Source of the DNA: a virus
Length of the DNA stretch: 40,646 bases
Reading direction: 5' to 3' (one strand)
IMG/VR virus record: IMGVR_UViG_3300028794_000011
Location: 1-40,646 of that record
In this document: piece after piece, positions 2,354 through 18,810 of the stretch
Position numbering within the stretch: position 1 is the stretch's first letter
How the letters are laid out: every line of letters begins with the position of its first letter
Made by a program: the position numbers and the translations under genes
The notes under the pieces: model-generated
The model's database searches: none
Told to the model about the DNA's origin: nothing
What the model saw: only the letters and a program-made list of their open reading frames with translations

Positions 2354-2959
2354 TTAACCTTTAAAGATTTCGTATTGCCACAGATACTTATCATTGTTAT
2401 AATCTGTCTGCTGGCAAAGGATGTTGGAATAACCTGGTTGTTGAAGAGCATACATTGGGCGGGCAAGAACAAGTAGAGGTGATCTGCCTGGCATTTTACC
2501 TTCTGGGTAACAGGTTTTACCAATAGCTATATCCAGGTGTTCATCTGCTGACATTGAAAGGAAAGAATTATAGAAATCTTCTTCTACAATATAGCAATGG
2601 GTGCCGGAAATAGTTTTAGGGTAATCATAATCCCCTCTATGCCAAAACTTATGAGTTCCTATACTACCTGCAGTATAAATATCATAATATAGGGATGGTG
2701 GAATAGTATATAGAAATCTATCACAAGCCCCCGATGCAGTAAACATTATATCATCCTCCATTATCCACACAGCAGGCCAGTTCTGATCTTTAGCATGTTG
2801 AACTATAGCTCTATGTGCCAGATGACAACCACGTGCTGGATTTTCTGCATCCATTATTGCGGGCCAGAGTTCATACTGAAACCCCTGTTCTGCTGCTTGT
2901 TGAATGATGTTTTCCATCCGGTCTGTACGGGCTGGGTTATGAATTATCTGTGCTATCAT
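2354..2959 (-). CDS. GT25-like glycosyltransferase
   Basis: A 201-aa protein resembling family 25 (LPS-type) glycosyltransferases. Features: an N-terminal IIHNPARTDRMENI strand-helix in which R-x-x-R follows the first strand; the signature GCHLAHRAIVQHA (residues 44-56), matching the family's 'GC..SH' motif; and the acidic metal/sugar-nucleotide motif WIMEDDI (66-71). These enzymes usually add galactose or a related sugar to a surface glycan. I start it at the internal ATG at 2959 because the extra ten upstream codons overlap the previous gene and look non-native. It may modify the host surface or a virion protein; the acceptor is unknown. Confidence 0.65.
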   Translation of the reverse strand: MIAQIIHNPARTDRMENIIQQAAEQGFQYELWPAIMDAENPARGCHLAHRAIVQHAKDQNWPAVWIMEDDIMFTASGACDRFLYTIPPSLYYDIYTAGSIGTHKFWHRGDYDYPKTISGTHCYIVEEDFYNSFLSMSADEHLDIAIGKTCYPEGKMPGRSPLLVLARPMYALQQPGYSNILCQQTDYNNDKYLWQYEIFKG

Positions 2960-3362
2960 CCGCTGTGATTTGAGGATTAGGAATACCAAGTATCTTCCTG
3001 CATTCTGGCCCGATACCTGTAATGAGTGATAACTTATCTGTTAACTGCCTATGGCATCTGCCACAACTACCTGAATGGTAAATGTGAATAGTATCAGGGA
3101 CTTTCTGCTTTAAAATAGCATTCCACATCCAGGCAAATACTGTAACAGGTTGTCTTACGGGGTTAGAAAATGTACCAAAAAATGTATTATCGTTTCTAAT
3201 AGCTCCTATCCACTCATTATTATAGTAAACCCACTTTTTTCTAACAGTGTAAGTGAATTGATCTTCACTTTTCTTCTTTGGCTGAGTATTATGAAAGGTA
3301 ACAACAGCCTTTCCACTCAGTAGATAATCATAAGCCTTATCCTGGCTAAGTCTGTTGTTCAT
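2937..3362 (-). CDS. DUF6011-like zinc-binding phage protein
   Basis: A 141-aa protein whose C-terminal region, HSGSCGRCHRQLTD followed by GIGPECRK (about residues 96-123), matches the compact zinc-binding signature of DUF6011-type proteins, found often in phages. Likely ligands are C100, C103, C121 and H104. The N-terminal two thirds is a beta-rich domain with several Trp/Tyr residues. Function is not known; such small zinc modules often bind nucleic acid or proteins. Its 3' end overlaps the glycosyltransferase start by 23 nt, making it the first gene of the operon that runs down to the methyltransferase. Confidence 0.6.
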   Translation of the reverse strand: MNNRLSQDKAYDYLLSGKAVVTFHNTQPKKKSEDQFTYTVRKKWVYYNNEWIGAIRNDNTFFGTFSNPVRQPVTVFAWMWNAILKQKVPDTIHIYHSGSCGRCHRQLTDKLSLITGIGPECRKILGIPNPQITADDSTDNS

Positions 3363-3755: not shown

Positions 3756-4187
3756 TTAATTATAATTTGTTCTTACATCTGATGGTATCGAACTATAATT
3801 CTCGACCAATTCTACTACATTAATAGAACCAAGTTCAGTTTCAATATGCTCATTATAAAGCATTATCTCTAATGCCTGTCTCTGCTGCAGATTGAGAGAG
3901 GGAAGAATATCTTCACTATACCCATCTATCTTCAAGCTTACTGATAATATTTCAATTGAAGCATGTTGCTGAAGCTGGCCATCTAAGGCAGGTATACCAG
4001 GTAAGAATGAGTAGCATATTTGCCATAAGCCTATTCCTGCTGGTTTATCTACTGAGAAAATGGATTCATTCTCTTCATCCGCAGCAGAATCATGTTCGCT
4101 ATTACTGCGCCAGGCAAAGATTACTACTAATACCATTCCAATTAACCATAGAATTAGAATTGTTACTGCAATTAGGTGTTCTTTCAT
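3756..4187 (-). CDS. Membrane-anchored hypothetical protein, 143 aa
   Basis: A single N-terminal membrane segment (about residues 5-26, AVTILILWLIGMVLVVIFAW) is followed by an acidic linker (SEHDSAADEENES) and a soluble helical domain of about 100 residues. The topology suggests an inner-membrane anchor. No family is recognised. The start ATG is preceded by a typical minus-strand leader ending in AAATC. It is flanked on both sides by structured non-coding stretches rather than being overlapped by neighbours, which suggests a separate transcription unit. Confidence 0.6.
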   Translation of the reverse strand: MKEHLIAVTILILWLIGMVLVVIFAWRSNSEHDSAADEENESIFSVDKPAGIGLWQICYSFLPGIPALDGQLQQHASIEILSVSLKIDGYSEDILPSLNLQQRQALEIMLYNEHIETELGSINVVELVENYSSIPSDVRTNYN

Positions 4188-4462
4188 GATTTAAGAGTTG
4201 AATTTGATTTAATTAAGTTTAGCGCCCTTCTATGAAGATCTTACCTTCACCTCGACTTGTAGGGGTATTTAAACCTTCCGTAAAGTTGGTTATAGATTAG
4301 GGCCAAGCTGAGAACTCCTTTGCACCAGAAAAGTCGTTGGGATATTGTTTACCCAAACCCTTTGTTCTGAACATAAACTATTGCTTTCTCAAGGCAATGG
4401 TGCATCACGTATTACTACGTGTATCGTTGTTTAAAGTCGTATCGAGGTTCAACGACTGTGTT
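4188..4462. ncRNA. Intergenic stretch with nested hairpins, structured RNA candidate
   Basis: This 275-nt gap holds no convincing gene. Positions 4332-4339 (AGTCGTTG) pair perfectly with 4450-4457 (CAACGACT), closing a 126-nt domain. Inside are a hairpin ATTGC/GCAAT (4380-4384 with 4394-4398) and a perfect hairpin CACGTA-TTAC-TACGTG (4406-4421). A further complementarity TGCACC/GGTGCA joins about 4321 to 4399. The number of nested perfect stems is more than expected by chance in AT-rich DNA. The transcribed strand is unknown; both flanking genes are on the minus strand. It could be a leader or a stand-alone small RNA. Confidence 0.4.
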
Positions 4463-4687
4463 TTAGAAGATACTGTAAGATGGTTCAATATCAGATACAA
4501 GTTCTAAGTCTCTATTATAAAAGTACATAGTGTTCCCGTCAGACTTTTGAAATCGAGGGCATGAGCTTCCATCTTCATGTATAAATGTAAGTATATCTCC
4601 AGCATTTGCATCATCGCCAGTGTAATAAGATTTTACTCTTACAATATCTCCTTCTTTAAATTTATGGTATTCCTGCCCTTGTTCCAT
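4463..4687 (-). CDS. Tagged SH3/KOW-like small protein (array member, type A)
   Basis: A 74-aa protein with the type-A opening FKEGDIVRVKSYYTGDD, typical of small SH3/KOW-like beta-barrels, and a last strand around NRDLELV. A short acidic linker leads to the C-terminal tag EPSYSIF. It is the most downstream tagged gene of the minus-strand array. No catalytic residues are visible; a protein- or RNA-binding adaptor is the natural guess. It sits 10 nt after the untagged 150-aa gene and before a structured non-coding stretch. Confidence 0.65.
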   Translation of the reverse strand: MEQGQEYHKFKEGDIVRVKSYYTGDDANAGDILTFIHEDGSSCPRFQKSDGNTMYFYNRDLELVSDIEPSYSIF

Positions 4688-4697
4688 AGCTTAGAGT

Positions 4698-5150
4698 TTA
4701 GCTTAGTAAAGCCTGCACTTGTTTCATAGCCATTTCCCTTTGATCGGCTTCGCTCAGGAATTTGCTCATGATACCTTCAGCTTCTTTCAGCTTATCAAGA
4801 GTCTCTTTGTGCTCAATGATCTGGCCACGAAGCTTAACATCAGCGATCCAGTCTGCAGCAGTTCCACCGCCTTCATTGAATGGTGCATAACTGGTAATAC
4901 CTGCAAGCTCAGCAGCTTTGTCATACCAGTGTTCTTTGGCCAGAATAACTGAAAGCATTTTCAGTATTACTGACTTGTCAGTTTCTTCTTTAAGACTTCT
5001 GCTGAAACCGGGTACTACACCTGATGTCTTCCATGGCGTATCGTGAATATGTTTCAGACTTTCAATTTTAGCTTTAATTGCAGCTAATACTTCAGGTACT
5101 GGTGTGTTTACTGCCAATGCAGTAGTGGTGTTGGCGTTTTGTTTGCCCAT
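4698..5150 (-). CDS. Conserved-type phage hypothetical protein, 150 aa, untagged
   Basis: A helical, charged protein that interrupts the tagged array but lacks the tag (it ends KQVQALLS). Central features are HDTPWKTSGVVPGF, a KEHWYDKAAELAG helix, and ADWIADVKLRGQIIEHKETLDKLKEAE. I have the impression of a family common in Bacteroidota phages but cannot name it. The C-terminal 50 residues look coiled-coil. The start ATG follows AATTCACAATC, the strongest form of the minus-strand leader motif, suggesting efficient or independent expression. Confidence 0.6.
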   Translation of the reverse strand: MGKQNANTTTALAVNTPVPEVLAAIKAKIESLKHIHDTPWKTSGVVPGFSRSLKEETDKSVILKMLSVILAKEHWYDKAAELAGITSYAPFNEGGGTAADWIADVKLRGQIIEHKETLDKLKEAEGIMSKFLSEADQREMAMKQVQALLS

Positions 5151-5161
5151 GATTGTGAATT

Positions 5162-5449
5162 TTAGAAAATTGAATAATTGTTATCTGTGTGTTGTGTTCT
5201 GAATTCTTCGGGGATTTCTTCTGGTAAAGCTAATCTTAGAAAATCTGATTTTACATTAAATCCTCCATCAGGATTCCCTATATCCTCAGAAAAGAGTCCT
5301 CTTAAAAATAGATTAGTACAATGGGGAGGGGTTCCATTACTCAGTAATACCTCAAAACTAAGACCTACTAATCTATGTTGAAGATTATACTCTGGGTCTT
5401 TTTTAAAAACTTTTACCCAGTTCCCCGCTTTAAAAGATTGAGTACTCAT
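5162..5449 (-). CDS. Tagged SH3-like small protein (array member, type A)
   Basis: A 95-aa protein beginning MSTQSFKAGNWVKVFKKD, the type-A 'FK.G..V' opening. After a beta-rich domain and the strand SDFLRLAL it ends with a polar linker and the tag DNNYSIF. I choose the ATG at 5449 because it restores the family start. The ATG lies inside the end of the upstream tagged gene, so the codons for that gene's Y-S-I-F-stop are read in another frame as part of STQSFK here. The longer upstream reading has no family similarity. Confidence 0.65.
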   Translation of the reverse strand: MSTQSFKAGNWVKVFKKDPEYNLQHRLVGLSFEVLLSNGTPPHCTNLFLRGLFSEDIGNPDGGFNVKSDFLRLALPEEIPEEFRTQHTDNNYSIF

Positions 5450-5654
5450 TTGATTGTGTTTGAGATTCGGAAAATTGTATAAGTTCAAAGAAGTTTTCAT
5501 CATATACTTCAGAGCTATTATCTTCTTCTAAAGCTATTACTCTATCTCCACGCCTCGTAACGTGTTCTTTTACAATGTATATGCCACCTGTTTTAGTGAC
5601 ACCATGATGTGCGACAGTTCTTCGTACCTTATCTCCGGGTTTAAAAGATGTCAT
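5430..5654 (-). CDS. Tagged SH3/KOW-like small protein (array member, type A)
   Basis: A 74-aa protein that starts MTSFKPGDKVRRTVAHHG, then TGGIYIVKEHVTRRG. This is a classic small basic beta-barrel pattern with a type-A 'FKPGD.V' first strand. The last strand ENFFELIQF is followed by a Ser/Gln linker and the tag SNEYSIF. Its start ATG lies inside the tag codons of the upstream gene: the DNA for Y-D-I-F-stop there is ATG-ACA-TCT-TTT-AA here. The arrangement argues for translational coupling. The function is unknown. Confidence 0.65.
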   Translation of the reverse strand: MTSFKPGDKVRRTVAHHGVTKTGGIYIVKEHVTRRGDRVIALEEDNSSEVYDENFFELIQFSESQTQSNEYSIF

Positions 5655-5868
5655 ATATTTCAGATTTAATTGGTGAACTAACTACTTTCCATTTCCCGCT
5701 ATTAAACATTCTGAGAAGGGTAGTTATGGATTCATCATTTGGTTCATTGTCTCTTAGCCTCACTTCATCCACATAAGAAGGATAAACAGTAGTAATTTTC
5801 CAGAGATTACCTTCATACTCACTATGATAAACCATTCCAATTACAATATCTTCTTTAAAATATGTCAT
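5641..5868 (-). CDS. Tagged small protein (array member, type B)
   Basis: A 75-aa type-B protein. It opens MTYFKEDIVIGMVY, contains LWKITTVYP, and has the type-B closing motif RMFNSGKWKVV (compare LNNGNWIV and LNNGHWVV in its siblings). It ends in the tag KSEIYDIF. I moved the start to the ATG at 5868 because the residues upstream only translate the previous gene's end in another frame. The start codon is embedded in that gene's Y-D-I-F codons, and its own tag codons contain the start of the following gene. Confidence 0.65.
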   Translation of the reverse strand: MTYFKEDIVIGMVYHSEYEGNLWKITTVYPSYVDEVRLRDNEPNDESITTLLRMFNSGKWKVVSSPIKSEIYDIF

Positions 5869-6076
5869 AGCTTTGAGCTTGAGATGAAACAATAGGTACC
5901 CAGACATTCTCTAAATTATCGAGTATATTCTTAAAAGTATAAAAAGTAGCTACTTTTTTATCATCATCACCCCAGATTATCTTTGGTTTATTATCTATAA
6001 CAGTTATAGTATAGACTATACCCTTACCATTAATCTGAAACTGTATACTATCAATGTTATGCTTAGAATATGTCAT
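5855..6076 (-). CDS. Tagged small protein (array member, diverged type B)
   Basis: A 73-aa protein beginning MTYSKHNIDSIQFQINGKG, matching the type-B opening M-x-Y-x-K-x-N-I. The closing motif is diverged (LDNLENVWVPIV) but in the right place. A Ser/Gln linker leads to the tag QSYDIF. The start at 6076 is embedded in the tag codons of the upstream gene and its own tag embeds the next start, giving 14-nt overlaps at both ends. Beta-rich, acidic in the middle (WGDDDKK), no recognised enzymatic motif. Confidence 0.6.
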   Translation of the reverse strand: MTYSKHNIDSIQFQINGKGIVYTITVIDNKPKIIWGDDDKKVATFYTFKNILDNLENVWVPIVSSQAQSYDIF

Positions 6077-6329
6077 AGCTTTCAATTTTAGGTGGTTCAA
6101 CATACTTACCGGCAGCAATGCAGGCTTGAAGATGGGCTTTTTGCTCAGAAGTAGTTATTTTAGTGACATGAGCATTAAAAAAGTACAAATTATTGGAACC
6201 ATTTTCTACAAAAGTATAATCCACTATATAAGCGCTTACTTTAACACGCTTGCCATCTAAACCTGTAAATTTAAATAACCATGTATGCCCATTATTCATT
6301 GCATATATCTCGCCGGGTATCAGTTCCAT
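6063..6329 (-). CDS. Tagged small protein (array member, type A-like)
   Basis: An 88-aa protein with a short type-A-like opening MELIPGEIYAMNNG followed by WLFKFTGLDGKRVKVSAYIV, a beta-strand-rich barrel pattern. The region TKITTSEQKAHLQACIAAGKY is helical and resembles the tail of small phage proteins that end a beta domain with a helix. The tag is ESYDIF. The tag codons contain the ATG of the following gene. The ATG at 6329 follows an A/T-rich leader ending in AAAAC. No family name is known to me. Confidence 0.6.
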   Translation of the reverse strand: MELIPGEIYAMNNGHTWLFKFTGLDGKRVKVSAYIVDYTFVENGSNNLYFFNAHVTKITTSEQKAHLQACIAAGKYVEPPKIESYDIF

Positions 6330-6338
6330 GTTTTAAAT

Positions 6339-6578
6339 TTAAAAGATTGAATAATTTGGTTCAGTTTCTACAGGTTTAGAAGTAACAATCCAATTACCAT
6401 TGTTTAGTGCATTCAAAGCATAATTTAATCGCCTATTCTTGAATTTCTTCTCATGTTTATAGAAATGGGTTACAACTATAACAATTAAATCTTTGCTAAA
6501 TTTCTCAATCTTATATATCTGCCCACTACCAGTTTTAGTTTTAAAACTAAAACCAAGTATATTGTCTTTAGTGTACAT
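6339..6578 (-). CDS. Tagged small protein (array member, type B)
   Basis: A 79-aa type-B protein. It starts MYTKDNILGFSFKTKTGSG, then IYKIEKF, and closes with YALNNGNWIV before a linker (TSKPVETEP) and the tag NYSIF. I use the ATG at 6578, four nt after the stop of the upstream membrane-protein gene; the longer reading runs through that gene in another frame. This is one of the clearest type-B copies, 79 aa against 72-75 for its siblings, and very Lys-rich in the middle. Confidence 0.65.
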   Translation of the reverse strand: MYTKDNILGFSFKTKTGSGQIYKIEKFSKDLIVIVVTHFYKHEKKFKNRRLNYALNALNNGNWIVTSKPVETEPNYSIF

Positions 6579-6582
6579 AACA

Positions 6583-6816
6583 TTAAGTTTTATCAGGTAC
6601 AGGATATACAAATGCTTCAACCAGCAGTATAGCTACCCAGAAGCATATCAATGACAGGAAACTGAATAGTGACAAAGCTAACCAGATAAGTATCTGAGTG
6701 AATGTGAATTGTATTTGGTACCGTTTGATAATGAATAGGATTGTTAACACAGCCAATACATAACCAATGAACCAGATTAATAAAGTGAGTGTTATGTTTT
6801 CAAGTATGAGTGTCAT
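6583..6816 (-). CDS. Small two-helix membrane protein inside the array
   Basis: A 77-aa, very hydrophobic protein with two membrane segments (about residues 10-31 and 41-67) separated by a basic loop KRYQIQFTF. It lacks the C-terminal tag and ends YPVPDKT. It lies 1 nt after one tagged gene's stop and 4 nt before another's start, so it is transcribed with the array. Holin-like size and topology are noted, but nothing else supports lysis, and the array location argues against it. It could anchor array proteins at the membrane; that is inference. Confidence 0.55.
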   Translation of the reverse strand: MTLILENITLTLLIWFIGYVLAVLTILFIIKRYQIQFTFTQILIWLALSLFSFLSLICFWVAILLVEAFVYPVPDKT

Positions 6817-6817
6817 G

Positions 6818-7033
6818 TTAAAAGATTGAATAGGTTTCCGATTGGGTAATGAGTTTGAAGTTACATGGCCTTACCCATACTACTTTATTTGTTGGTAATC
6901 TAACTTCAATAGTTCGGTATTCTGTAGAAGTTGCTAAGTTTGTGATAGGTACCTGCTCACCTAAATAACCCTCAAGAGAAGGGTTATCATCAGTCCCAAT
7001 AATCTCTACCATATCACCTGTTTTTGGTTCCAT
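6818..7033 (-). CDS. Tagged SH3/KOW-like small protein (array member, type A)
   Basis: A 71-aa type-A protein: MEPKTGDMVEIIGTDDNPSL opens the barrel, followed by a Gly/Glu turn (GYLGEQVPI) and strands ending VVWVRPCNFKLI. A short linker leads to the tag SETYSIF. It does not overlap its upstream neighbour; 79 nt of A/T-rich DNA lie in front of its ATG. The tag is thus kept even where the overlap that encodes it elsewhere is absent, which suggests the peptide itself is useful. Confidence 0.65.
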   Translation of the reverse strand: MEPKTGDMVEIIGTDDNPSLEGYLGEQVPITNLATSTEYRTIEVRLPTNKVVWVRPCNFKLITQSETYSIF

Positions 7034-7112
7034 ATTTTACGTTTTAAATAATGTTTAATTTTGTACTATAAATTGTAACTATGTGCTGGCCAAATGATTT
7101 CAGTTTGCATAA

Positions 7113-7541
7113 TTAAAAGATTGAGTATGATTCTTCTGCTGGTGATTGAGAAGGCATTTCTACCACTTGCCAATCCCCATTATTTAGAAGTGCTATAACC
7201 CAGTCAATAGAATTTCTATCGCAATATTGCTCATTACCTAATTTATGATTTAATACTACATCACCTTCAATAGCTTTAATTTTCCAGGGTTCAGTTGTGC
7301 CATGTGAAGCTTTAAATACTATACCAATGATATTATCTCTGGTGTATTTTAGCACGGCTTTAGGATACGATAGTTGGCATTCAGCCAACCAGGTAATTAG
7401 CCCATCAGAATTCTTTGTTTTGTAGTTATAAATTGCTTTAGGATTTTGCTCAACCTCAATTATCTCTACTTCACTGCCAACAGGTAATATAGTACCACTT
7501 GCATCTGTAGTAATGAGTTTATCACCAAGTTTGAATTCCAT
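7113..7541 (-). CDS. Tagged fusion of type A and type B array domains
   Basis: A 142-aa protein, twice the usual array size. Residues 1-60 are a type-A domain (MEFKLGDKLITTDASG, then GSEVEIIEVEQNP and LITWLAECQL). Residues 64-142 are a complete type-B domain (LKYTRDNIIGIVFKASHG, then WKIKAIEGD and ALLNNGDWQVV) with one terminal tag, AEESYSIF. There is no tag at the A/B junction. This directly links the two domain types as parts of one system. A frameshift or stop loss between two adjacent array genes would give this product. Confidence 0.7.
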   Translation of the reverse strand: MEFKLGDKLITTDASGTILPVGSEVEIIEVEQNPKAIYNYKTKNSDGLITWLAECQLSYPKAVLKYTRDNIIGIVFKASHGTTEPWKIKAIEGDVVLNHKLGNEQYCDRNSIDWVIALLNNGDWQVVEMPSQSPAEESYSIF

Positions 7542-7551
7542 GTTGTTGAAT

Positions 7552-7773
7552 TTAAAATATGAAATAATCTTGTGCTGAAACTTGTTTTACTATCTCAGGA
7601 TTTAGTACTCCCCATTTACCAAAGTTTAAATTTTGTAATACCCAAACAAGATCTTCTGTTTCCACACTACCATTAGACTTAATTATAACTTCATTACTAC
7701 TTACAGATAATATAAGAAACTCACTAATTATCTTGAACCTTACTCCAACAATATTATCTTTAGTATATTTCAT
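7552..7773 (-). CDS. Tagged small protein (array member, type B, variant tag)
   Basis: A 73-aa type-B protein. The opening is MKYTKDNIVGVRFKIISEFL, the middle is short, and the closing motif is LQNLNFGKWGVL. It ends in QDYFIF, the only copy with Phe in place of Ser/Asp at the third tag position from the end. It lies 10 nt upstream of the A-B fusion gene with no overlap. The typical 'W-x-I' strand is replaced by LILSVSSNEVII, so the central strands are diverged. Confidence 0.65.
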   Translation of the reverse strand: MKYTKDNIVGVRFKIISEFLILSVSSNEVIIKSNGSVETEDLVWVLQNLNFGKWGVLNPEIVKQVSAQDYFIF

Positions 7774-7781
7774 AACTGTGA

Positions 7782-8000
7782 TTAAAAGATGGAATAATTA
7801 GGTTCAGATTTTGGAATTACTACCCAATGTCCATTATTTAGAAATTCTAAAGCATCTTCTAATGGATTACAGTCAGAAGCAGAATTCTTTAAACTTTGCT
7901 GATAAACAAAACTATTTTCTATATATGTTATTTTCCATTTAGATGTCCCGGGTACTAAACTGAATTGCAACCCAATTATGTTATCTGCTGTGTATTTCAT
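7782..8000 (-). CDS. Tagged small protein (array member, type B)
   Basis: A 72-aa type-B protein and the most upstream tagged gene. It opens MKYTADNIIGLQFSLVPGTS, contains KWKITYIENSF and closes with FLNNGHWVVI, then linker PKSEP and tag NYSIF. Its ATG overlaps the end of the upstream membrane-anchored gene by 20 nt. With the 7552 gene it forms a pair of nearly equal length and matching opening, suggesting a fairly recent duplication. Confidence 0.65.
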   Translation of the reverse strand: MKYTADNIIGLQFSLVPGTSKWKITYIENSFVYQQSLKNSASDCNPLEDALEFLNNGHWVVIPKSEPNYSIF

Positions 8001-15802: not shown

Positions 15803-16477
15803 ATGAGACTATTTACAATCAATGAGAACTTCCAGGTAGAGTTGAATAAACCCTGGATAATGCTGGTACCTGAATTCGCTAATCTGCTGCGAAGGGATAA
15901 GGGATCGGAAGGGGATTACCGTGGGGATAAGAAATTAAAAGCTACAAAAGAATTTACCTTTATCTACTTTGATCTTGACTTCACCAGTCCTATACGTGAG
16001 TGGGAAGATTTTGAGAGAAGAGAAGAATCTATGAGATATGCAGGATTAACTGAAGCAGATCTTGATGATAAAGTAATGGAAGCACACGCCCACTATGATA
16101 CTATGCTCTTAGGCAGCAGCAGAAGCCTTAAAACTCTAAAGGCTGTAGAAACATCTCTCGATCAACTTGACAGTTACTTTGAGAATATTGATTTTTCCCT
16201 CACTGATAAGAAAGGTGAACTATTACACAGTGCCAGTCAGTACCTTACCAACCTTGAGAAGTTAGGTAAAGCTTATTCTGCTGTTGAAGCATTCAAGAAA
16301 CGTGTAGCTGAAGAACTGAAAGGGGATGCATCTATACGGGGCCAGAATACTCTTGGTAGAAAGGAAAGCGTTAAACGTGAGCCTTGGGCTGAGAAGATGA
16401 GTAGTAAACCTGTTCACATCCAACAGACGAGTTTTAGTGATCTTGCTAAGTTACTTGGTGAGGATGAAGAAGAATAA
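15803..16477 (+). CDS. Conserved-type protein upstream of terminase, 224 aa
   Basis: The N-terminus MRLFTINENFQVELNKPWIM, then LVPEFANLLRRDKGSEGD, leads to FTFIYFDLDFTSPIREWEDF. A long helical region (residues 60-180) follows with coiled-coil character, and the end is basic then acidic (LAKLLGEDEEE). I recall similar proteins next to the terminase in crAss-like phages. A head-assembly or small-terminase-like role is possible but unproven. I start at 15803, 1 nt after the IHF-like stop, because the longer version overlaps that gene and adds unrelated residues. Confidence 0.6.
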   Translation: MRLFTINENFQVELNKPWIMLVPEFANLLRRDKGSEGDYRGDKKLKATKEFTFIYFDLDFTSPIREWEDFERREESMRYAGLTEADLDDKVMEAHAHYDTMLLGSSRSLKTLKAVETSLDQLDSYFENIDFSLTDKKGELLHSASQYLTNLEKLGKAYSAVEAFKKRVAEELKGDASIRGQNTLGRKESVKREPWAEKMSSKPVHIQQTSFSDLAKLLGEDEEE

Positions 16478-16486
16478 ACCCATAGC

Positions 16487-16717
16487 ATGACACATAAATT
16501 TGAAACAGCTACCCATTACATTTATTATATAGTTAGTATAAGATGTACAGAACCTATTTTACAAACTACGGAACAGATACTAACTATAATAAAGCAACTT
16601 AAATCTAATGGGAATATAACATTAGGAAATCCAACTTTAGTTAATAATAAACCGGAGAGTGAATTACTCGAACACTGGAAGCAATATAATGTTTGTACCT
16701 ATATTGAAAGCTACTAA
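16487..16717 (+). CDS. Hypothetical protein, 76 aa
   Basis: An aromatic, beta/alpha small protein (HYIYYIVSIRCTEPILQTTE, then LTIIKQLKSNGNI) with no recognised domain. It ends with TAA overlapping the terminase ATG as TAATG, so translation of the terminase is likely coupled. Its size and position could fit a small terminase, but it shows no helix-turn-helix pattern, so I leave it unnamed. Confidence 0.55.
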   Translation: MTHKFETATHYIYYIVSIRCTEPILQTTEQILTIIKQLKSNGNITLGNPTLVNNKPESELLEHWKQYNVCTYIESY

Positions 16718-18810
16718 TGGGATTTCATAACCTTGTTAATACAGCCCAATTTTCATATACAGCCCGTGACTTTAAAAAACAGGGGGATAAGTATTGCCTT
16801 GCCCCAATAGGTAGCAGGGAATGGACTGAGTTCTGGACAGAAGAAGAAAGGAGGTGTAGAGAAGGGTATTCAATAGGGGATTTATGGATACCGGGCCGAC
16901 ATTATTTCTACCTCAACTTTACACAGATAAAGATGGTTGATCCCAGAATTTCTGTTCAGGCTTATCTTGACAGGAAGAATGGGGTTCAAATGAATAAGAT
17001 TACTGCTGCTAAGGATATGTATTTCCCAAGATTTTATGAAGTGGATTATGAATGGTTTAATTTCAAGCACATAGCATGGCATGGTGGGGAATTCATGGGA
17101 GTTAAAAGTACAGGGGCTAAACACATCTGCTGTGGAAAGACGAGGGGGGCAGGGTTTTCATATAAAGAGGCAGCAGATGGAGTATATAACTTCTTTTTCA
17201 TAGATGGTTCAAAAAGTTACTACTTCGCTGGTCTGGAACAATACTTAATTGTGGATGGTATTCTAAATAAAGTTCAACCCATGTTGGATTTTATTAATGA
17301 CCATTGCGTAGATTGGAAAAAGAATAGACAGAAGAAGAATACTCTGATGCATCAAAAAGCAAGTTATATAGATGCCTTAGGTGTAGAGAGAGGTAGTATG
17401 TCAGAAATCATAGGTCTTTCAATTGATGACCCTGATAAAACCCGTGGAAAACGTGGGGAGAAGATTGTATTTGAAGAAGCAGGATCATTCAGAGATTTAA
17501 AGAAAGCCCTGAATGTATCTAAAGGTTCTATTGAAGATAATGGTATAGTGATAGGGCAGATAAGTGTATTTGGAACTGGTGGGGAGGAAGGTGCAGATAT
17601 TGAAGGACTTGAAGATATATTCTATGATCCTGATAGTTTTGATATGCTGGCATTCCCTAACGTATGGGAAAAAGGGTATGAGGGAACTACTTGTGGTTAC
17701 TTTGTTCCCATATGGCGGATGAAACCTGTGTTTACTGATGGAGAAGGTAATGCTGATATAGTGGCAGCTATCAATGATGAAAAATCTATCCGCAGGCAAA
17801 AGAAGAAAGCTAAAGATCCTAAAGTACTTGATGGGCATAAGGCTGAGTACCCATTCAAACCCAGTGAGATGTTCAGGCGTATTCATAAGAATATGTTCGA
17901 TGTCGCTGAAGTTGAAGCCCAAATACGAAGAGTTGAGTCGCAGCAGAGTATCGCAGGCATGCTGAGGTATGGTCAGCTCAGACGCAGTGAGGAAGAAGGT
18001 GTAATTCTTATACCAAAATCTAAACATGATGCTAAACCGGTGGATGTATATCCACACTCATCTAAAGATGATCTTGAGGGATGCGTAGTAATATTCGCCC
18101 GACCTTACCTGGATCAGAAAGGACAGGTACCTTCAGGCATGTACCAAATTGTAGTTGATCCATACTATAAGGAAGAAAGTGAAGATCTCACTTCACTGTT
18201 CTCGGTTCAGGTATGGAAACAGTATAATATGATTGACCCTAAGGATGAGGCATTACCAATAGCATGGTACACTGCCCGCCCACAGCAGTTGAAGACAGCT
18301 TATGAAACATTATTCATGCTTGCTGATATGTATAATTGTACTATACAGGGTGAGATAGCTGGTGGAGGACAAGGGATAGTTGATTACGCCAAGATGACAA
18401 GGCAGTTACATAAGCTCGAACGGGAACCTGAGATGCTTGGTAACAAAGAATATGCTTCATCAGCATCTCAACGTAATAAGAGCATGCTGATGAATATGCC
18501 TACCGAGAAGAAAAGACTCGGACTTACTTACCTGGCCAACTGGCATACAGAGCAGAGGGGAGTTACAGAAGATGGTAAACCTATTCTTAACATTCACAGG
18601 ATATATGACCTTGGTCTGCTGAGAGAGATGAAGAGGTACAATCCTGATAAGAATGCTGATAGAATTTCGGCAGCTATTATAGCCATGTTTATGCTGAAAG
18701 AGAATGCTTATAAAGAAGAAAAGAAGATTAGCAAAGAGCAAACTTTTTTCAAGAAACCACTCTTTGGTGGTGGACAAGCTGTACAAGCAGGTACCACCGG
18801 ATTTTACTAA
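16717..18810 (+). CDS. terL: Large terminase subunit (TerL)
   Basis: A 697-aa packaging motor with both expected domains. ATPase: Walker A variant C-C-G-K-T-R-G-A-G-F-S (about residues 138-148) and Walker B IVFEEAGSF (250-258) with the catalytic Glu at 253/254. Nuclease: D481 in YQIVVDPYY, E546 in CTIQGEIAGGG, and D648 in KNADRISAAI, the RNase H-like metal triad. The 'GKTRGAGFS' Walker A and overall length match crAss-like TerL. It pumps DNA through the portal and cuts it. The TAATG overlap couples it to the previous small gene; the portal gene follows after 28 nt. Confidence 0.9.
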   Translation: MGFHNLVNTAQFSYTARDFKKQGDKYCLAPIGSREWTEFWTEEERRCREGYSIGDLWIPGRHYFYLNFTQIKMVDPRISVQAYLDRKNGVQMNKITAAKDMYFPRFYEVDYEWFNFKHIAWHGGEFMGVKSTGAKHICCGKTRGAGFSYKEAADGVYNFFFIDGSKSYYFAGLEQYLIVDGILNKVQPMLDFINDHCVDWKKNRQKKNTLMHQKASYIDALGVERGSMSEIIGLSIDDPDKTRGKRGEKIVFEEAGSFRDLKKALNVSKGSIEDNGIVIGQISVFGTGGEEGADIEGLEDIFYDPDSFDMLAFPNVWEKGYEGTTCGYFVPIWRMKPVFTDGEGNADIVAAINDEKSIRRQKKKAKDPKVLDGHKAEYPFKPSEMFRRIHKNMFDVAEVEAQIRRVESQQSIAGMLRYGQLRRSEEEGVILIPKSKHDAKPVDVYPHSSKDDLEGCVVIFARPYLDQKGQVPSGMYQIVVDPYYKEESEDLTSLFSVQVWKQYNMIDPKDEALPIAWYTARPQQLKTAYETLFMLADMYNCTIQGEIAGGGQGIVDYAKMTRQLHKLEREPEMLGNKEYASSASQRNKSMLMNMPTEKKRLGLTYLANWHTEQRGVTEDGKPILNIHRIYDLGLLREMKRYNPDKNADRISAAIIAMFMLKENAYKEEKKISKEQTFFKKPLFGGGQAVQAGTTGFY

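Follow-up and report, generated by a model that had tools for sequence, protein, structure and literature searches.

Eleven small proteins of a crAss-like phage share a C-terminal Y-x-I-F tag that may serve as a docking peptide

Why should eleven small phage proteins, some of them without detectable homology to one another, finish in almost the same four residues? The question is raised by positions 1 to 40,646 of IMG/VR record IMGVR_UViG_3300028794_000011, a crAss-like phage; this whole 40.6-kb stretch of DNA is hereafter called the window. Between positions 4463 and 8000, eleven minus-strand open reading frames (ORFs) encode proteins with the C-terminal sequence Y-[S/D/F]-I-F. The array had been proposed in a preliminary description made from the sequence alone, and all its ORFs, stops and endings were verified.

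By rising coordinate, the last five residues of these proteins are SYSIF, NYSIF, EYSIF, IYDIF, SYDIF, SYDIF, NYSIF, TYSIF, SYSIF, DYFIF and NYSIF. When they are aligned from the stop codon, F at -1, I at -2 and Y at -4 are the same throughout (11/11, zero entropy), and position -3 is occupied by S in seven cases, D in three and F in one. From position -5 upstream the entropy reaches about 1.9 to 3.3 bits and the linkers are unconserved, which bears out the earlier impression of a variable linker before a nearly fixed end. Y.IF endings were found in 15 of the 2,030 distinct predicted genes present in everything fetched at that stage, namely ten from the window, three from a second phage and two strays in loci that had themselves been chosen by a tag pattern. 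Genes outside annotated records were ATG-to-stop predictions passed through a greedy overlap filter, which removed the eleventh window gene (5430-5654) from this count. Such a frequency rules out a chance origin of the shared ending. Single YxIF genes in other loci (L071 and L068/L085) are isolated and were taken as chance.

The bodies that precede the tag belong to at least three sequence types. Type A comprises a 74-aa protein at 4463-4687 (tag SYSIF), a type A-like protein at 5162-5446 (NYSIF; internal ATG at 5446, with a longer frame from 5503), a 74-aa protein at 5430-5654 (EYSIF), a 71-aa protein at 6818-7033 (TYSIF) and the first half of a 142-aa protein at 7113-7541 (SYSIF). Type B, whose members are clear paralogues, includes the second half of that 142-aa protein together with proteins of 75 aa at 5641-5868 (IYDIF), 73 aa at 5855-6076 (SYDIF), 79 aa at 6339-6578 (NYSIF), 73 aa at 7552-7773 (DYFIF) and 72 aa at 7782-8000 (NYSIF). 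The two body types recognised previously are thus real, but they do not cover the whole array, because one gene (7113-7541) is an A+B fusion and the 88-aa product of 6063-6329 (SYDIF) is by sequence neither A nor B. Neither is the array uninterrupted, since two untagged minus-strand genes lie among the eleven tagged ones: an ORF at 6583-6816 for a 77-aa protein, membrane-like by eye from its long hydrophobic stretches, and the gene of a soluble 150-aa protein at 4698-5150.

No profile similarity between types A and B could be detected. AlphaFold2 models, built with paralogue alignments, show type B with confidence as a barrel of five strands in which a helix precedes the last strand (predicted local distance difference test, pLDDT, about 88-96; about 90 for the type B half of the fusion), and type A as an SH3-like barrel with pLDDT of about 80 alone and about 57 within the fusion. 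The tails are of low confidence in both models and are predicted to be disordered. Foldseek matched both models to SH3, Tudor, CPH and KOW domains, with a best E value of 0.003, so the fold assignment is only moderate. With that degree of confidence, types A and B are predicted to be SH3-like small barrels, a resemblance previously suggested for type A and now extended to type B.

Could the common ending be a by-product of tandem duplication, or of a DNA signal such as the next start region or a terminator? The paralogy within type B would suit the former origin, and four tags do run into the next start codon, with an overlap of 14 nt in 6063-6329, 5855-6076 and 5641-5868 and of 17 nt in 5430-5654. 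However, synonymous codons vary at every tag position (Tyr TAT/TAC; Ile ATC/ATA/ATT; Phe TTT/TTC; Ser TCA/TCC/AGT) and the DNA context is not constant, mean pairwise identity being 0.64 over the last five codons and dropping to about 0.28 within 30 nt upstream, so that a copied DNA element can be dismissed. In each of the three Y-D-I-F tags, and in no other, a TATGAC contains the ATG of the following gene, and in the fourth overlap (5430-5654) the ATG is placed earlier and S is kept. The seven tags that overlap nothing are all Y[S/F]IF, D being confined to the sites at which the following ATG requires a G; far from varying freely outside the overlaps, which would have told against the tag, the ending persists there. 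Besides, no gene start lies within 275 nt downstream of the tag of 4463-4687 or within 79 nt of that of 7113-7541, and the untagged gene 4698-5150 is as close upstream of a tagged gene as the tagged genes are; the tag thus cannot be explained as a start-site or terminator signal. Unrelated bodies carry it, and it recurs on other bodies in a second phage. This origin is consequently very improbable and largely refuted. Since seven tags overlap nothing and D is confined to the TATGAC overlaps, selection acts on the protein ending.

The second phage was obtained by scanning IMG/VR with a DNA pattern of two tags 205-235 nt apart, which had been validated on the window. The scan returned 40 loci, and in only one of them (L093) were the tags real gene ends. 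This locus belongs to a contig of 28.8 kb (G020), which, like the window, is a genome fragment; no structural genes were recognised in it, and the two phages are apparently unrelated. Three adjacent genes of L093 encode proteins of 71, 94 and 75 aa that end in NNDYNIF, INNYSIF and NNNYSIF, and no further tagged gene was found in G020. By hhalign the first body fits the type A profile (75%, E 2e-5), and the remaining two correspond to neither type A nor type B. Directly after these genes there is an untagged one (1610-2044), whose product is 38% identical over 132 aa to the 150-aa protein of the window (E 6e-31). Because the pattern demanded two tags, the third tag and this neighbouring homologue were outside what was searched for. 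The proposal that the ending is a shared protein-level C-terminal signal is hence strongly supported by the invariant Y.IF residues, the varied codons, the unrelated bodies and the recurrence beside the same partner gene.

These data are best explained if the Y-x-I-F end is a C-terminal docking peptide, that is, a short linear motif carried by a flexible, polar tail. Small phage proteins of the non-structural minus-strand region, mostly single SH3-like barrels, would attach through it to one common receptor, for which the untagged 150-aa protein (4698-5150) is the best candidate. The barrels would then be interchangeable effector or binding modules gathered on a hub, and this assembly would replace the covalent multi-SH3 proteins of the closest relative and of N4-like phages. 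We infer that the tag binds something, that its receptor is the 150-aa protein and that this protein acts as the hub; to the docking-peptide reading as a whole, with tag, common receptor and hub, a probability of roughly 45% is assigned. The presence of the same tag on bodies without detectable mutual homology supports it. The 150-aa protein is the most likely receptor because it was found side by side with the tag in two apparently unrelated phages, and confidence in it is only moderate because the phages are two.

The 150-aa protein is related to phrog_2574, a function-unassigned family from large Bacillus, Clostridioides and Synechococcus phages (profile E 4e-4 for the window protein and 1e-7 for its L093 homologue; hhalign probability 98.1 over 121 columns). 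Among 45 viral records tested, a close homologue was found only in G020, and a distant one in another contig (G417), where it has no tagged neighbour. There was none in the tag-free relatives G001 and G004 or in 395 Bacteroidota genomes, and the family had no match in PDB sequences or NCBIfam. Members from large phages, such as that of Bacillus phage vB_BcoS-136, are homologous to the window protein over about 120 columns; they differ in being preceded by a protein of 340-430 aa, and in the neighbouring stretches that were examined neither a YxIF tag nor any other shared C-terminus was seen. That arrangement is a second conserved pairing in its own right, as the phrog_2574 genes in five loci (L105, L111, L112, L113 and L114) directly or nearly follow a gene for this conserved 340-430 aa protein, with the motif M.F.P..I.VGYQ.R..TYTGKLAYVIY. 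No homology was detected between these neighbours and the third body type of the array.

Three facts weigh against the docking-peptide proposal. The tag has been seen paired with the gene of the 150-aa protein in only two phages. The phrog_2574 family at large can do without the tag, since in the examined stretches no YxIF ending accompanies its members from Bacillus, Clostridioides and Synechococcus phages or that of G417. Finally, a third phage contig (G439, described below) bears a shared tag of another kind and has no close homologue of the 150-aa protein, from which it follows that its receptor must differ.

The composition of the tag suggests another partner. It has some likeness to ligands of the sliding clamp, and as such it would tether the small proteins, via the host DnaN, to replicating DNA. 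The x-Y-[S/D]-I-F ending resembles the hydrophobic half of the beta-clamp motif QL[S/D]LF, with the same hydrophobic-Phe end and S/D in the same place, and S/D-I-F is found in 10 of the 11 window proteins. There is also a precedent in phage T4, where gp43, gp55 and gp33 carry interchangeable C-terminal epitopes for the clamp gp45 after a divergent linker (PMC2988020). As in the window, different proteins have short hydrophobic C-termini on divergent flexible linkers, all bound by one receptor; on the other hand, the T4 set consists of three replication or transcription proteins instead of eleven small ones, its epitopes are acidic and its receptor, gp45, is known. No clamp of the gp45 type was found in G020, G439 or G001 with Pfam PF02916. 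The S/D-hydrophobic-F likeness pointed out previously is genuine, but it is weakened by two observations. Gln does not occupy the first pentapeptide position in any of the 11 window tags (S, N, E, I, S, S, N, T, S, D, N) or the three of L093 (D, N, N). Moreover, canonical clamp motifs are kept separately in G020, whose family B polymerase (L107:2365-4236), with relatives in many phages, ends in NKQLELF, while another protein (L107:8027-8743) has QLPLF near its C-terminus; in the window fragment no polymerase was recognised. G439 has genes of its own for a DnaN clamp, a DnaX-like clamp loader and an intein-containing DnaE that is split into pieces (L120:11623-13032 and 16338-18185; L126:1666-2781 and 3861-5174), yet the C-terminal part of its DnaE ends in TVDLFA, unlike the tag shared by other proteins of that contig. 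Clamp binding is thus considered unlikely.

A hydrophobic free C-terminus on a predicted disordered tail could also be a degron or protease ligand, read by a Tsp/Prc-type PDZ protease or by ClpXP/FtsH, that shortens the life of early proteins. S or D at position -3 together with a terminal F would suit a PDZ ligand. However, such signals are usually loose in sequence, and here all 11 proteins have the same Y, I and F. Furthermore, a signal read by the host would need no partner gene, whereas the tagged genes adjoin the gene of the 150-aa protein in both phages and occur nowhere else on those contigs. It is improbable, then, that the tag serves degradation.

The gene setting bears on a further possibility, namely that the tag is a virion-loading signal, with which the proteins would be packaged into the head and delivered by injection. 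The window phage has a major capsid protein (MCP) about 30% identical to those of many Crassvirales, and cargo proteins have been described in crassvirus heads and tails (PMC10172136), although those known so far are large. In T4, internal proteins bear an N-terminal capsid-targeting sequence that is removed by gp21 (PMC9958956). These are likewise several small, partly dispensable proteins with one short terminal tag, but that tag has about 10 residues, is N-terminal and is cleaved; YxIF is C-terminal, belongs to a non-structural region and follows bodies whose N-termini vary by type. The structural genes of the window begin at about 13 kb and run on the plus strand, and the tagged array is in a divergent, non-structural minus-strand region apart from them. 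In addition, the nearest record to the window (L002/G001, 91 kb), with an MCP 79% identical, is untagged, so the capsid is not adapted to the tag across the lineage. Loading into the virion is accordingly regarded as a rather unlikely function.

The comparison with relatives also indicates how the tag relates to the domains that carry it. The best outside match of the window type A profile was a multi-SH3 protein of G001 (L031:4457-5188; E 0.0027); the reverse search gave E 0.015, and proteins of N4-like phages agree (E 1.8e-10). The G001 protein is encoded at the syntenic place, upstream of the glycosyltransferase and methyltransferase genes that the window also has. Multi-barrel SH3-like chains were seen both in it and in Ithacavirus (L039:3764-5017; P0001); the Ithacavirus chain further includes a segment that in a relative is annotated as ribosomal protein L7/L12-like. 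The barrels of both proteins are homologous to type A; in contrast to those of the window, they are covalently joined and have no YxIF tag. The occurrence of the same domains without a conserved C-terminus, which would have told against the tag, is therefore found in part, in distant SH3 homologues of G001 and N4-like phages, and it indicates that the tag is an add-on to the SH3 domain and not a part of it. Neither did the tag turn up in 18 related records, for which the search used a DNA pattern limited to the TAT-TCN spelling and the C-termini of predicted genes, and anchoring on neighbouring genes led to one 142-kb phage without it. Judged from these comparisons, the tag is lineage-specific.

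Wider searches with the bodies returned little. When type A, type B and third-type proteins were compared with 50,697 phage records (tblastn), homologues were found for the 4463-4687 type A body only, in N4-like Enterobacteria phages. Scans of IMG/VR and GTDB with single bodies or alignment A3 gave no matches or chance ones (an acyl-CoA dehydrogenase-like and a Legionella protein), and the eight matches of the tag plus an MKYT start pattern were all a single unrelated phage gene out of frame.

Is the tag of the window, then, an isolated case? A general scan for shared C-termini flagged a locus (L102, 5168-6820) on contig IMGVR_UViG_3300035698_029839 (G439; 297,710 bp, L119-L134). There, 30 of 495 predicted genes end in R-[F/L/other]-x-I-L-D-L, with variants that include one M-ending protein and Y, W or L in place of I; no variation is seen in R, D or the L at -3, the R having been fixed by the way in which the set was selected. 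Tagged clusters are situated at about 15, 28-33, 50-52, 62, 161-167 and 286-294 kb. Most of the bodies are mutually dissimilar, and SH3-like ones are among them. Some open with YKVGDKIKIK, like type A, and others are membrane-like, zinc-finger-like or a possible metallopeptidase (263 aa, HELCH), the membrane and zinc-finger labels having been given by eye, except in one protein that weakly matches a zinc ribbon of Pfam. This different tag on 30 small proteins is the same phenomenon on a larger scale, and it means that shared C-terminal tags recur in phages; at least two YxIF phages and at least one ILDL phage have been found.

As to the surroundings of the array, the window has glycosyltransferase family 25-like and methyltransferase-like genes (2354-2989 and 1091-1675) that are side by side in its nearest relative too, with 55-57% identity. 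The gene at 2937-3362 encodes a DUF6011 protein (Pfam PF19474) that is conserved in G001 and G004.

Shared C-terminal tags appear to be a genuine but seldom noticed means by which phages direct many proteins to one partner. Somewhat speculatively, lineage-specific C-terminal tags might even constitute a general phage recruitment code, in which each phage has its own tag (YxIF in the window and G020, R[F/L]xILDL in G439), many unrelated small proteins that bear it (soluble, zinc-finger-like or membrane-bound) and a dedicated phage-encoded receptor. If true, this would be a previously undescribed targeting system, and dozens of unrelated proteins with one tag per phage would represent a new organisational level of phage early proteins. 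Phages have many genes for small proteins whose function is unknown; a common tag shows which of them work together and points to their receptor, so that function could be tested by group and not singly. The tags themselves could be ready-made recruitment peptides.

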